Part shown: positions 26,640-32,535 of the stretch, one piece after another
Position numbering within the stretch: the stretch's first letter is position 1
How the letters are laid out: every line of letters starts with the position of its first letter
Assembly (NCBI GenBank): GCA_016874005.1
Contig: VGVQ01000002.1
Coordinates: 124,001 to 188,000, forward strand
DNA: 64,000 bases
Direction of reading: 5' to 3'
From: Gemmatimonadota bacterium
GTDB taxonomy: Bacteria > Gemmatimonadota > Gemmatimonadetes > Gemmatimonadales > GWC2-71-9
The notes under the pieces: model-generated
Told to the model about the DNA's origin: nothing
The model's database searches: none
The model's input: the letters and a program-made list of their open reading frames with translations, nothing else
Position numbers and translations under genes: made by a program

Positions 26640-26788
26640 CGCGGCCTCCGGGTTTGGGCCTGGAAAGGGGCGAAGTCTATCGTGCCCCTTCGGACTCGTC
26701 CACCAGCCGCCGCCGGGTATCCCGGATCGCTTGCGTCGGCGCCCGGGTCGTCGGCATCTTTGGATCGTCGAAGCCACAAGGTATCTCC

Positions 26789-28693
26789 ATGCGTCTCAAT
26801 CGGTTGACCCAACCGCTCGTCCGCGACAACGGGATCTTGCGCCCGGCCAGCTGGGACCACGCGCTCGACCGCGCCGCCGAGGGCTTCCAGCGGATCAAAG
26901 CCGCCCACGGAGCCGATGCCCTCGCGACGATGAGCTGTTCGAAAGCCAGCAACGAGATGAACTTCCTGGCGTCGAAGCTGACCCGAGTCGCGTTCGGGAC
27001 CCATAACATCGACAGCTGCAACCGGACCTGACACGCCCCTAGCGTCGTCGGTCTGGCGACGGTGTTTGGTGCCGGGGGCGGCACCAGTTCCTATCGAGAG
27101 GTGGAGGAGACGGACGTCATCTTCCTGTGGGGAGCGAACGCCCGCGACAACCACCCGATCTTTTTTCACCACGTCCTCAAGGCGATCCGGCGGGGCGCCC
27201 GGATGTTCGCCTGCGATCCCCGCCGGACCTCGACCGCCCAGTGGGCCGATGCCTGGCTCGGGCTCCACGTCGGCACCGACATCGCCCTGGCCAACGCGAT
27301 GGCCCGGGTGATCATCCACGCCGGATTGGCCAATCAGGCCTTCATCGCCAACGCCACCTCCGGCTTCGAGGCCTACCGCGCGGCCGTGGAGCAATACACC
27401 CTGGCCCGTGCGGAGCGGATCACCGGGGTTCCCGGTGAGGTGATCGAACGGGCCGCGCTGGCCTACGCCCGAGCCGATCGGGCGGTCATCTGCTGGACGT
27501 TAGGCATCACCGAGCACCACAACGCGGTCGACAACGTGCTCTCCCTGATCAACCTCGCCCTCTTGACCGGCCACGTCGGACGGTACGGTTCCGGCCTCAA
27601 TCCGCTCAGGGGTCAGAACAACGTCCAAGGCGGCGGCGACATGGGCGCGATTCCTAACCGGCTCGCCGGGTTCCAGGACTGGACCAAGGACGCGGCCGTC
27701 AAGGCCAAGTTCGACGCGGCCTGGGGCATCGACATGAAAGCTCAGTACGGTCGCAACCTCTCCCAGATGTTCGAAGGCATGGAGCACGGCGAAGTCCGGG
27801 CCGTCTACGCCATTGGCGAGAACCCGGCTCAGTCCGAAGCCGACCAGAATCGGGCCGAGCGCCTTCTCACCGGCCTCGACCACCTGGTGGTTCAGGACAT
27901 CTTCCTGACCCGGACCGCCGAACTCGCCACCGTCGTGCTGCCCGCCAGCGCGAGCTGGTGCGAGTCCGAAGGCACCGTCACCAACAGCGAACGCCGGGTC
28001 CAGCGGGTTCGCAAGGCGCTGGAGCCGCCGCCCGGGGCGAGGGACGACATGTGGATCATCGCCGAGATCGCCAAACGACTCGGCCACGATTGGGGACAGC
28101 CCTCGGCCGAGGCGGTCTGGAACGAGGTCCGCTCGCTCGCCCCGATGGTGGCGGGGATGAGTTACCCGAGGCTCGAACGCGAGGGCGGCCTCCATTGGCC
28201 CTGCTACGACGAGACCCACCCGGGCGAACAATTCCTTCACGGCCGCCTGTGGCAGCAGCCTCGCGGTGGCCCGGCGGCTCCCTTCAGCGTGGTGGAACAT
28301 GACCCGCCAGTGGAGATGCCGGATGCCGAATACCCCTTCCAGCTCACCACCGGCCGGCGGCTCGATTCCTACAACACCGGGGTGCAGACCGGGGGATTCA
28401 CCTCCCCACTGCGACGCGGTGAGACGGTGGACATCTCGCCCGAGGATGCCGCCAGCCTGGGAGTCGGCGAGGGCGATCGGGTTCGGGTGAGCTCGCGGCG
28501 CGGCAGCGTCGTGGCACCGGTGCGGGTCGATTCCTCGCTCCGGGCCGGACTGGTGTTCATGACGTTTCACCACCAGGACCAGGTCAAGACCAACGTGCTC
28601 ACCATCGACGCCACCGATCCCAAGTCGGGCACCGCCGAATTCAAGGCCTGCGCCGTGAGGATCGAGCCGGTGGCCGCCGCGGTGACCACCTAA
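26789..28693 (+). CDS. fdhA: Formate dehydrogenase catalytic subunit, selenocysteine-containing, lacking its N-terminal Fe-S domain
   Basis: 634 aa if the TGA at 27029-27031 is read as selenocysteine (residue 81). Oxidises formate to CO2 at a Mo/W-bis-MGD centre. Around the TGA the protein reads IDSCNRT-U-HAPSVVGLA, the exact place and context of the Sec/Cys ligand followed by the conserved His in FdhF-type enzymes. Downstream: VIFLWGANARDNHP, GLNPLRGQNNVQGGGDMG, VVLPASASWCESEGTVTNSERR, and the C-terminal MopB domain (FQLTTGRRLDSYNTG ... FKACAVRIEPV). It starts MRLNRLTQPLVRDNG, exactly after the point where normal enzymes end their [4Fe-4S] domain; that domain is at the end of the gene at 30586. 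First gene of a three-gene operon. Confidence 0.93.
27029..27061 (+). promoter_or_regulatory. Selenocysteine TGA codon and bacterial SECIS hairpin of fdhA
   Basis: TGA at 27029-27031. Eighteen bases later an apical loop GGTCT (27050-27054) sits on a 7-bp stem, CGTCGTC (27043-27049) with GGCGACG (27055-27061), including one G-U pair. The loop sequence and its distance from UGA equal those I recall for E. coli fdhF SECIS, which binds SelB. Confidence 0.9.
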
Positions 28694-28705
28694 CGAGCCG
28701 ACCCA

Positions 28706-30589
28706 GTGGACCTCCACCTTCTCGACGCCGCACCCACGCCCGCCGAACGGGCCGCCATCGACGCCTTCCTCGGCCCACCGAAGGACGGTTGGACCGGCGG
28801 CGCTCGCGAACCCCAGGACGCCCACACGGCCGCCGGCGGTCACCACAGTCGCAGCCAGCGCCATCTCCTCCTGCCGGCGTTGCTCGCGGTCCAAAGGCGA
28901 GTCGGCTGGATCAGCGCGGGCTCCCTGATGTACCTCTGCCAGCGCCTGACGATCCCGCCGGCCGACGCCTATGGCGTGGCGACGTTCTACGCCCTGTTGC
29001 CGACGGCGCCCAGGCCACCCCGGGTGGTCCACGTCTGCGACGACATCGGGTGCCGGGTCCGCGGCGCGGAAGCCGTCTGCGCCGAACTCGAGCGGACCGT
29101 GGGGCCGGCCCACCATCCGCCAACGGGCACCAGCCACGAGTTGCCGGCCATCGGGTCCGGCTGGATCCGAAGCCCCTGCCTCGGCCTATGCGAGGAGGCC
29201 CCCGCGGCGCTCCTCACCCAGGCCGGCGCCACACCAGTCGAGCGTCTGTTCGGCAATGCCACCGCGGGGCGGATCGCGGCGGTGCTCGCCGGGAACGACA
29301 GTACCGCCGATCAAACCCGGGCCCCGATCCCGCAAGCAGGCGATCCCGATCTCCTCCTGCTCCGTCGAGTCGACCGGATCGATCCGACCGACCTCGATGC
29401 CTACCGAGCCCACGGCGGCTACCAGGCCCTCCGCCTCGCGCTGGACCTCGGCCCAGACGGGGTGATTCGAGAGATTGCCGACAGCAAGCTCGCCGGACGC
29501 GGCGGCGCCGCCTTCCCGACCGGGCGAAAATGGGACGCGGTGGCCAAGCAGCCGGTCCGACCCCATTACGTGGTCTGCAACGCCGACGAATCCGAGCCCG
29601 GCACCTTCAAGGACCGGGTGATCATGGAGAAGGACCCCTACAGCGTCGTTGAAGCGATGACGGTGGCGGGATTCGCGACCGGGTCGGAGCAGGGGTTCAT
29701 CTACCTTCGCGGCGAGTATCCCCTGGCCCGGACCCGGCTTCAGCACGCCATCGATCAAGCGACCAGCCGCGGGCTACTCGGCGACAATATCATGAGCCGC
29801 CCAGTCCGGTTCACCATCGAAATAAGGGTGGGGGCGGGAGCGTACATCTGCGGCGAAGAGACCGCGATCTTCAACTCGATCGAGGGATTCCGAGGCGAAC
29901 CGCGGAACAAGCCGCCCTTTCCGGTACAGATCGGGTTGTTCGGCAAGCCCACGGTCGTGAACAACGTGGAAACCCTGGTGAACGTGCTCGAGGTGCTTCG
30001 GCTGGGCGGCCCGCAGTATGCCGCGATCGGCACTGCGGGTTCCACCGGGACTCGGCTCTTCTGCCTGTCCGGACACGTCGCCCGGCCAGGCGTCTACGAG
30101 GTGCCCTCGGGAACGACGCTCCGTCGGTTGCTCGAACTGGCCGGGGGCGTCGCGGGGGGGCGGGCGCTGAAGGCCGTGCTCCTGGGGGGCGCGGCGGGCG
30201 GGTTCGTTCGGGCCGACGAAATCGACTTGCCGCTCAGCTTCGAAGCGACCCGGGCCGCCGGCGCGACCCTGGGCTCGGGGGTCGTCATGGTCTTCGACGA
30301 TACCACCGACTTCGCCGACATCCTCCGGCGGATCGCGGCCTTCTTCCGCGACGAGTCGTGCGGCCAGTGCGTGCCGTGCCGGGTGGGCACGGTCCGTCAG
30401 GAAGAGGCGCTCCACCGGCTCCAAGCCCACCGGCCGATCGGCGGGACGGCCGCGGAGTTGGCGCTCCTCGACGAGATCGGCCTGGCGATGAAGGACGCCT
30501 CGATTTGCGGACTGGGGCAGACCGCCTACAGCGCGGTCGAGTCCGCGATCAAGCGGCTCAAACTCTTCGACGGGGTGGCCCCGCGATGA
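28706..30589 (+). CDS. fdhB: Formate dehydrogenase beta subunit, fused NuoE-NuoF (FMN/NADH module)
   Basis: 627 aa from GTG. Residues ~50-200 are NuoE-like with a thioredoxin-fold [2Fe-2S] site: C111, C116, C158, C162. Residues ~215-620 are NuoF-like: GRGGAAFPTGRKW (264-276) and NADESEPGTFKDR for FMN/NADH, then the [4Fe-4S] motif ESCGQCVPCRVGT with the last Cys in ICGLGQT. This fusion is known in two-subunit NAD-dependent enzymes such as Methylorubrum FDH1. It passes electrons from the Fe-S relay through FMN to NAD+. The first ~45 residues are variable. Its TGA overlaps the next ATG. Confidence 0.93.
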   Translation: MDLHLLDAAPTPAERAAIDAFLGPPKDGWTGGAREPQDAHTAAGGHHSRSQRHLLLPALLAVQRRVGWISAGSLMYLCQRLTIPPADAYGVATFYALLPTAPRPPRVVHVCDDIGCRVRGAEAVCAELERTVGPAHHPPTGTSHELPAIGSGWIRSPCLGLCEEAPAALLTQAGATPVERLFGNATAGRIAAVLAGNDSTADQTRAPIPQAGDPDLLLLRRVDRIDPTDLDAYRAHGGYQALRLALDLGPDGVIREIADSKLAGRGGAAFPTGRKWDAVAKQPVRPHYVVCNADESEPGTFKDRVIMEKDPYSVVEAMTVAGFATGSEQGFIYLRGEYPLARTRLQHAIDQATSRGLLGDNIMSRPVRFTIEIRVGAGAYICGEETAIFNSIEGFRGEPRNKPPFPVQIGLFGKPTVVNNVETLVNVLEVLRLGGPQYAAIGTAGSTGTRLFCLSGHVARPGVYEVPSGTTLRRLLELAGGVAGGRALKAVLLGGAAGGFVRADEIDLPLSFEATRAAGATLGSGVVMVFDDTTDFADILRRIAAFFRDESCGQCVPCRVGTVRQEEALHRLQAHRPIGGTAAELALLDEIGLAMKDASICGLGQTAYSAVESAIKRLKLFDGVAPR

Positions 30590-31545
30590 CGACCCTGGTT
30601 TCGTTGGCCCCGCCCCGGCGCCTGGTGAGCCTGACCATCGACGGCAAAGGAATCGAGGCACCGGAAGGCAGCACCATTCTCGAGGCCTGTCGGACCCAGG
30701 GTACCGAGATCCCCACGCTCTGCTACCTCGAGACGCTGCACCCGGTCAACGTGTGCCGGGTTTGCGTGGTGGAGGTGGAGGGCTCCCGGGTCCTGGTGCC
30801 GTCCTGCTCGCGAAGGGTAGAGCCGGGCATGGTGGTCAAGACCCAAAGCGAGCGGGTCGTCCACAGCCGCAAGATGGTGTTGGAGTTCCTCGCTTCCTCG
30901 GTCGATCTCTCGACCACCCCGGAGGTGGCCCGGTGGCTCGGAGAGTACGCCGCCCGCCCCGACCGTTACGGTCCCCCGGCGCCACCGGCGGCGGCCGGCG
31001 CTCGCGACGGCCTCGAGCCCGGGCATCATGACCCGGTGGAACCCGGATTTCGGGCGACCGTGGCCCAGCCGACCAAGATCGACAACGAACTCTACCTCCG
31101 CGACTACGGCAAGTGCATCCTCTGCTACAAGTGCGTCGAGGCTTGCGGCACCGACCACCAGAACACCTTCGCGCTCACGGTCGCGGGTCGCGGATTCGAT
31201 GCCCGGATCTCGACCGAGTTCGCCGTCGAACTGCCCCGGTCGGCGTGCGTCTACTGCGGCAACTGCATCGCGGTCTGCCCGACCGGCGCGCTGATGTTCA
31301 AATCGGAGTACGACCACCGGGCCGCGGGGACCTGGGACGAATCCAGGCAAACGGTCACCCAGACCATCTGCCCCTATTGCGGTGTGGGCTGCAACCTCGA
31401 GCTGCATGTCCAGGACAACGAGATCGTGAAAGTCACCTCACCCCTCGACCACGACGTGACCGAGGGGAATCTCTGCATCAAGGGCCGGTTCGGGTGGCAG
31501 TTCGTCCAGAACCGAGCGAGCGAGGAGCGGCCGCAGGGCGGCTAG
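30586..31545 (+). CDS. Separate N-terminal half of formate dehydrogenase alpha: [2Fe-2S], 2x[4Fe-4S] and molybdopterin Fe4S4 domain
   Basis: 319 aa; start ATG overlaps the fdhB stop (ATGA). Domains in order: NuoG-like [2Fe-2S] ferredoxin (C46, C57, C60, C74); bacterial ferredoxin pair (C177/180/183/187 and C221/224/227/231); and at the C-terminus the Molybdop_Fe4S4 domain (C262, C265, C269, C297) ending KGRFGWQFV plus a 12-residue tail. In full-length FdsA-type alpha subunits this same order precedes the catalytic domain; 319 + 634 residues is about the length of such a subunit. The NuoG His-Cys3 cluster motif expected near residue 100 is missing. It must dock on the product of the gene at 26789 to complete the electron path. 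Confidence 0.9.
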   Translation: MTTLVSLAPPRRLVSLTIDGKGIEAPEGSTILEACRTQGTEIPTLCYLETLHPVNVCRVCVVEVEGSRVLVPSCSRRVEPGMVVKTQSERVVHSRKMVLEFLASSVDLSTTPEVARWLGEYAARPDRYGPPAPPAAAGARDGLEPGHHDPVEPGFRATVAQPTKIDNELYLRDYGKCILCYKCVEACGTDHQNTFALTVAGRGFDARISTEFAVELPRSACVYCGNCIAVCPTGALMFKSEYDHRAAGTWDESRQTVTQTICPYCGVGCNLELHVQDNEIVKVTSPLDHDVTEGNLCIKGRFGWQFVQNRASEERPQGG

Positions 31546-31599: not shown

Positions 31600-32442
31600 T
31601 TAGGCGATCCGCCTCGGCCCGGCGTACGCCGTGAACCGGCCATCCCGAGCGAAGCCGATCAGTCCGATGCCGGCGGCCTCCGCGAGCGAGACCGCCAGTC
31701 CGGTGGGCCCCGACATCGCCACCAGCACCCCGGCGCCGAGAATCATGGTCTTCTGGACCATCTCGAAGCTGGCTCGGCTGGTCACCACCACGAACCCCCG
31801 AGCCGGATCGACAGCGGCCCTGGCGCACGCGCCGATCAGCTTGTCGAGGGCATTGTGTCGGCCGACGTCCTCCCGGACCAGCTCGATCCGTCCATCGGCG
31901 GCGGCCCATCCAGCGGCGTGGACCGCGCCGGATTGGGCGTTGAGAGGCTGGCGATCCCGCAGCCCGGCCACCGCGCGATTGACCGCTTCGGGGCGCACCG
32001 AGGCGAGCCCGGCGACCGGCCGGACCGGCCGCAGCACCGCGTCGATTCCCTCGGCCCCGCAGAGCCCGCAGCCGGTCCGGGCAGTCATCCGCCTGGCCCG
32101 CCGCTCGATGTTTTCCTGACAGGCCGGGTCGACCCGGATCTTGAGCTCGATCCCTTGGCTGAACCGGACCGATTCCACCGCCAGAACGTCGCTCGCGGCA
32201 TGGACCAAGTCCTCGGTGAGGCTGAATCCGAGGGCCAGGTCGTCGAGGTCGAGCGGGGTCGCCATCACCACCGCGTGGGGGATCTCGTTGTACACCAGCG
32301 CGACAGGCACCTCCTCCACCACCGTCTCGCGGTGAGCGGTCGCCGTTGGGCCGACCCACTGGGTCGCGTCGACCTGGCGGACGGGCTCGCTGTGGCCAAG
32401 CCGGGCCGTCGGGGAGGGAACATCGGAAGAAGGTGTCGGCAT
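31600..32442 (-). CDS. fdhD: Formate dehydrogenase accessory sulfurtransferase FdhD
   Basis: 280 aa from the ATG at 32442, which has GGAG eight bases upstream; the open frame begins 23 codons earlier. FdhD takes sulfur from the desulfurase IscS and delivers it to the Mo/W-bis-MGD cofactor, needed for formate dehydrogenase activity. Seen: VEEVPVALVYNEIPHAVVM, ALGFSLTEDLV, the redox pair CGLC (from RTGCGLCGAEG), EDVGRHNALDKLIG and TSRASFEMVQKTMILG. It faces the fdh operon tail to tail, 54 bases away. The stop codon lies in the octamer CGTTAGGC. Confidence 0.95.
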   Translation of the reverse strand: MPTPSSDVPSPTARLGHSEPVRQVDATQWVGPTATAHRETVVEEVPVALVYNEIPHAVVMATPLDLDDLALGFSLTEDLVHAASDVLAVESVRFSQGIELKIRVDPACQENIERRARRMTARTGCGLCGAEGIDAVLRPVRPVAGLASVRPEAVNRAVAGLRDRQPLNAQSGAVHAAGWAAADGRIELVREDVGRHNALDKLIGACARAAVDPARGFVVVTSRASFEMVQKTMILGAGVLVAMSGPTGLAVSLAEAAGIGLIGFARDGRFTAYAGPRRIA

Positions 32443-32535
32443 CGGGGCTCCAATCGACTGGGAACCTTCACTCCCGCCTTGCCGACCCGTCAAGGCCGGC
32501 CCAAACGCCACGGGCTCCGCGGCTAGATTCCGGTC

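Follow-up and report, generated by a model that had tools for sequence, protein, structure and literature searches.

Introduction

In all formate dehydrogenases (FDHs), bis-MGD and the proximal [4Fe-4S] cluster are stated to be bound by one and the same subunit (PMC7171172). In the enzyme from Rhodobacter capsulatus, the direct electron path runs A1-A2-A3-A5-B6-FMN, and cluster A4 lies off this path at the dimer interface (PMC7171172). Selenocysteine (Sec) enzymes encoded beside components of an NAD module have also been recorded. A Sec fdhA is found in an operon with nuoEF in the planctomycete P1 and in Plesiocystis, with 65% identity between the two (PMC4807772), a Sec-FDH adjoins NuoEFG homologues in Sulfobacillus (PMC4378227), and a Sec-FDH is mentioned for Amycolatopsis mediterranei (PMC4048454). 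The enzymes of these three papers probably belong to the class described here, and such an operon has thus probably been seen in passing already; the main-text passages on them contain no mention of a domain split. The openly available literature searched contained no description of a split alpha subunit, in line with the sequence-only reading of this DNA, which knew of none.

Here, we describe an operon in which the FDH alpha subunit is encoded as two reordered proteins. We put a probability of roughly 0.87 on the reading that the operon encodes a cytoplasmic, NAD+-linked Sec Mo/W-FDH whose alpha subunit is made as two proteins, with the Fe4S4 domain docked in trans and the split of single origin. 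The stretch of DNA analyzed (the window, 64,000 nucleotides) comprises positions 124001-188000 on the forward strand of contig VGVQ01000002.1, from a 3.88 Mb draft genome of a Gemmatimonadota bacterium that is 97% complete and consists of 49 contigs.

Organization of the Operon

The operon consists of three genes on the forward strand. The first, cat (26789..28693), encodes the Mo-bisMGD domains of an FDH alpha subunit in 634 residues including Sec81. Its ATG start has AAGG 7 nt upstream, and Pfam identifies Molybdopterin PF00384 (1-353/353) and Molydop_binding PF01568 in its product and nothing else. The second gene (28706..30589, 627 residues) encodes a NuoE-NuoF fusion with PF01257, PF01512, SLBB, and PF10589, so that an NAD+/FMN diaphorase subunit of the FdsABG type is present as a fusion between cat and the third gene. 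The third gene, g3 (30586..31545, 319 residues), has a start codon that overlaps the stop of the NuoEF gene (ATGA) and encodes the FeS half of the enzyme, namely a [2Fe-2S] domain, two [4Fe-4S] domains, and a C-terminal Mo-proximal Fe4S4 domain. The gene for the accessory sulfurtransferase, fdhD (31600..32511, reverse strand; TIGR00129, 183 bits above the cut-off, and PF02634), is convergent with the operon at this locus; in relatives with fdhD nearby, it is mostly downstream on the same strand. The genes flanking the operon and fdhD, weakly DinB-like and weakly NUDIX-like, appear unrelated. The FDH operon runs divergently from the DinB-like gene, and their short common upstream region (26700-26800) may contain a regulatory site.

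Position of the Break in the Alpha Subunit

The two halves of the alpha subunit are complementary without gap or overlap. In the NCBIfam model of FDH alpha (TIGR01591), positions 1-51 correspond to residues 260-310 of g3 and positions 52-672 to residues 4-625 of cat, and in the PDB FDH alpha chain 9wxb_B, residues 24-307 are matched by g3 and residues 307-933 by cat. The complete Molybdop_Fe4S4 domain (PF04879, 2-55/55) lies at residues 256-309 of g3 (31351..31512, forward strand), behind matches to Fer2_4 and Fer4_7. It contains Cys262, Cys265, Cys269, Cys297, and Lys299, all of which are invariant in the aligned relatives. In all fused homologues, the catalytic domain has this domain as its N-terminal part. 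Across the break, the fused homologues read ...CVKG[RQ]F..-HxDR[LIV]..P.[VI]R, while in the window g3 has CIKGRFGWQFVQ followed by a tail, and cat has MRLNRLTQPLVR.

These comparisons with full-length FDH alpha sequences, which the sequence-only reading had proposed, bear out what it had noticed: the catalytic gene starts just past the [4Fe-4S] domain of FDH alpha, the missing domain with its four cysteines is the C-terminus of g3, fused behind one [2Fe-2S] and two [4Fe-4S] domains, and the halves are swapped around the NuoE-NuoF gene, both in the window and at 114 homologous loci. The Mo-proximal cluster and the active site would, as that reading also held, be on separate chains, with the Fe4S4 domain on g3 and absent from cat. 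From these complementary sequences, we infer that cat and g3 assemble into one enzyme. The TIGR01591 score is 659.7 bits for cat alone, below the cut-off of 666.25 bits, and 57.8 bits for the g3 part. We suggest that the split has been overlooked because cat falls just under this FDH-alpha cut-off and the Sec versions seem to be cut at UGA.

In every member the break falls at a precise point, as might be expected if the halves were joined after translation, by trans-splicing, a split intein, or ligation, into a conventional alpha subunit. However, the g3 tail past FVQ varies but is short (3-65 residues, median 14), the cat leader has a median of 8 residues, and no intein domain is detected by Pfam, which makes such joining highly improbable; protein trans-splicing in particular is rejected for its lack of an intein and for the short variable tails.

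Selenocysteine at Residue 81

The reading frame from 26789 had been reported as the catalytic gene, which holds, but it is not an ordinary open frame, as it contains an in-frame TGA at 27029..27031 (forward strand; NIDSCNRT-U-HAPSV), which the sequence-only reading overlooked. This codon specifies residue 81 of cat, the position of the Sec/Cys metal ligand in FDHs. Residue 81 is encoded by TGA in every Sec-type relative and by a Cys codon (TGC/TGT) in an actinobacterial subset, and every locus that covers this residue has one or the other. A bacterial-type SECIS hairpin is located at 27043..27061 (forward strand), with a C/G-rich stem and an apical GGUCU loop 18 nt past the UGA. Because Rfam at the gathering threshold gave no match within the 64-kb window, the hairpin was tested by comparison. 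Single-sequence folding of the region is not exceptional (z 0.35); the case for the hairpin is based on comparative evidence. Among 86 distinct Sec-type relatives, the six pairs formed between 15-20 and 26-31 nt past the U of UGA each show pairing of 98% or more, and 83 of these relatives have GGTCT as the apical loop. Twelve Cys-type relatives have lost the hairpin. T occupies the third position of the loop Gly codon in 84/86 Sec sequences versus 0/12 Cys sequences (Fisher p = 1e-13, indicative only, as related sequences are counted as independent). The source genome encodes SelA, SelB, and tRNA-Sec, and the three features by which bacterial selenoproteins are recognized, an in-frame UGA, a SECIS, and this machinery in the genome, are all present. 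The conserved single-site TGA, the comparative SECIS evidence, and the Sec machinery indicate that cat is read through as a selenoprotein, with UGA serving as a selenocysteine codon and not as a stop.

Conservation and Distribution

The search of genomes for the same split that had been recommended recovered it from several phyla, a wide conservation that the sequence-only reading missed. At 114 of the 114 loci that have all three genes (a few are counted twice, and distinct genomes are somewhat fewer), cat, NuoEF, and g3 follow each other in this order on one strand, and an in-frame upstream cluster motif occurs in none of the 103 cat genes whose N-terminus is complete. Homologues in the same taxonomic order as the window have 63-85% identity and an identical layout. 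When GTDB representative genomes were scanned with an alignment of g3, at least 583 relatives were detected. Among the best 80 of these, the order is the same wherever the retrieved contig includes the catalytic gene; they represent Gemmatimonadota, Actinomycetota, Chloroflexota, Acidobacteriota, Planctomycetota, Eremiobacterota, Rokuibacteriota, and Dormibacterota, with the cultured Actinomycetota Saccharopolyspora, Amycolatopsis, Lentzea, Nocardiopsis, and Actinoallomurus among them. In the family of Actinoallomurus, a cat gene, mostly of the Cys type, is present in 78 of 251 genomes. Among the full-length matches listed for 395 genomes of the window's phylum, split sequences have at least 63% identity and fused ones at most 47%, with none between. 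On plasmids, no close relative was found, all matches being below 60% identity. Two genomes labelled Chloroflexi and Thermomicrobiales (L147:3961-9887 and L186:351-6198) contain ~2 to 4 kb extra between cat and NuoEF.

The source genome is a draft and the cat frame contains a TGA, so the locus might be viewed as an assembly artefact of an intact fused gene or as a pseudogene killed by that TGA. Against this stand the common order at 114 loci from many separate assemblies and several phyla, the retention of TGA or a Cys codon at residue 81, the retention of the SECIS in Sec sequences, the Sec machinery of the genome, and the lack of a second alpha subunit. The split layout is also seen in large single-contig assemblies (L255 and L256). 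Apart from cat, a PF00384 search of the genome yielded only two partial matches, one spanning 74 positions and one NuoG-like, and cat is the only FDH-catalytic match at E<=1e-100; a second intact alpha subunit elsewhere, which the sequence-only reading had named as a possible objection, is thereby ruled out. Its other concern, a misassembly joining 31500 to 26789, is dismissed by the same order at 114 loci. Conservation of the order, of the residue 81 codon, and of the SECIS thus refutes the misassembly and pseudogene readings, to which we attach a negligible probability. The recurrence of one layout across many unrelated phyla marks the split FDH, as judged from its genes, as a real and under-described class.

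Structure and Proposed Electron Transfer

An AF2 model of cat alone (pLDDT 82, pTM 0.84) predicts a fold with the full catalytic domains, and it superimposes on both 7vw6 (MeFDH1) and 1fdi (FDH-H) with a TM of 0.92; the AF2 model of g3 is poor (pLDDT 56). In 35 aligned cat members, U81, H82, and R274 are invariant, with Cys at position 81 in the Cys type. Sequence and model together show the metal ligand, the active-site residues, and the fold of cat, from which we infer that it oxidizes formate. The lysine equivalent to Lys299 in E. coli FDH-H is held to be an electron carrier. In the split FDH, this invariant Lys, which follows the last Fe4S4 Cys, also sits on g3 and not on cat. No split member with a complete N-terminus has bis-MGD and the proximal [4Fe-4S] on one subunit, and by its predicted cofactor sites, the split FDH is an exception to the one-subunit rule (PMC7171172).

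Each of 127 g3 sequences retains the [2Fe-2S] motif, both CxxCxxCxxxC motifs, and the motif of the Fe4S4 domain. The His-Cys3 motif of cluster A4 is found in none of the 127 and is present in the FdsA controls (L195, L196, L205, and L206). Since A4 is off the path in R. capsulatus FDH, the electron wire of the split FDH would be complete without it. In the proposed mechanism, the three proteins would make up a single complex, with the Fe4S4 domain of g3 docked in trans into cat. Cat would bind bis-MGD, and formate would be oxidized at Sec81/His82/Arg274. Electrons would pass from the Mo site via the invariant Lys299 to the proximal [4Fe-4S] of the g3 C-terminal domain, and from there through the two ferredoxin-type [4Fe-4S] clusters and the [2Fe-2S]. 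The NuoE-NuoF protein would take up these electrons through its [4Fe-4S] and FMN and, by analogy with RcFDH/FdsABG, reduce NAD+. The whole would act as a soluble formate:NAD+ oxidoreductase.

Cluster-less Mo-bisMGD enzymes such as the DMSO reductases exist, and cat might likewise be cluster-free, with its electrons taking another route. The Fe4S4 domain of g3 would then be vestigial, like N7 of many complex I enzymes, which is described as a remnant in that of T. thermophilus (PMC7171172). Nevertheless, the domain is invariant at its four Cys and its Lys, the motif of the linking cluster A2 is kept in 127/127 g3, and g3 lies in the operon at every locus of sufficient length, and we consider a vestigial domain improbable. 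The NuoF homologue and the many FeS domains also recall an electron-bifurcating FDH of the Bfu type, with ferredoxin as a third partner, and HydB-type chains are among the best PDB matches of the NuoF part. The NuoF-type subunit HydB has a C-terminal 2x[4Fe-4S], but the NuoF part of the fusion is without this bifurcating-type extension of HydB/BfuB, which leaves bifurcation with a small chance.

Origin of the Split

A tree built from 78 catalytic sequences places the split members in a single clade (support 100, stem 1.04). Nearest to it are the fused Sec-FDHs of the same taxonomic order (support 89), then FdsA, with FdhF/HDCR and FDH1 branching further out; only the monophyly of the split clade is firm, because of a long-branch attraction warning at the sister join. 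Because the FDH outgroups carry the Mo and Fe4S4 domains on a single chain, the simplest view is that the split is derived, with a single origin from a fused FDH. A fused FDH would have been cut once at the short H-x-D linker, with its C-terminal half relocated ahead of the NAD module. The permuted order could have arisen by tandem duplication of NuoEF-alpha and complementary losses. By pairwise-distance correlations among the parts (r 0.40-0.72), the Fe4S4 domain does not stand out as cat's partner. A second recoding, by in-frame TAG, was considered for the fused relatives, and only a terminal stop was seen in those examined.

Sec and Cys Forms of the Catalytic Protein

Methanococcus is known to switch between Sec and Cys isoenzymes in the case of other enzymes (PMC11097638). 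In Actinoallomurus iriomotensis (L161:4144-8052 and L258), a Sec and a Cys cat that are 81% identical lie in tandem before one NuoEF, g3, and fdhD, and the SECIS is intact in the Sec copy and lost in the Cys copy. That genome has no g3 besides the operon copy. In another genome (G388), Sec and Cys cat are on different contigs (L253 and L252), and the Cys copy is followed by a piece of a second NuoEF, so the FeS/NAD module may also be duplicated there. One tentative and rather doubtful interpretation is that cat is an exchangeable cartridge, with the FeS/NAD module taking up a Sec or Cys cat according to selenium supply. If this were true, the first electron step of a Mo enzyme would occur across a regulated protein-protein interface.

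A split class spread over several phyla, cultured actinomycetes included, breaks the description of FDHs and related Mo/W-bisMGD enzymes in which the Mo site and the proximal cluster share one chain. Mo-to-FeS electron transfer, cofactor insertion, and Sec/Cys exchange could all be studied in this natural two-piece system, which may also be of use in the engineering of CO2/formate catalysts.

Comparison with Known Formate Dehydrogenases

FdsABG(D) of Rhodobacter capsulatus and Cupriavidus has in common with the split FDH the domains, the predicted path A1-A2-A3-A5-B6-FMN, FdhD, and a NAD module of the NuoE/NuoF type. It differs in that its alpha subunit is one chain of ~950 residues, NuoE and NuoF are separate genes, and the gene order is GBA. 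It also has the His-Cys3 cluster A4 and a Cys ligand, whereas the split FDH is without A4 (127/127) and has a predicted Sec in the cat of the window. The fused Sec-FDHs of the same taxonomic order (L096-L104) resemble the split FDH in their upstream NuoEF, their Sec UGA at the same site, and their lack of the A4 motif. Unlike it, they have the FeS and catalytic halves in one frame and in canonical order, with ~42-46% identity. These fused alpha subunits with an in-frame TGA form a separate class that is common in the window's phylum, apparently without the His-Cys3 cluster.

The beta subunit of Methylorubrum extorquens FDH1 is a NuoE-NuoF fusion, and this enzyme (7vw6) is the best structural match of cat (TM 0.92), but it has a fused alpha subunit, a Cys ligand, and tungsten. 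E. coli FDH-H employs Sec in catalysis, with a SECIS spacing like that of the split FDH. Both FDH-H (FdhF) and the FdhF of HDCR have the catalytic fold and active-site residues in common with cat, but they carry the proximal Fe4S4 domain on the same chain and have no NAD module. In the FDH of a Natrinema plasmid (L202), NuoF, a 2Fe-2S/4Fe-4S protein, and FdhF are encoded by separate genes, as in the split FDH, but the break lies at the usual domain boundary, and the FdhF of 744 aa keeps its N-terminal region.
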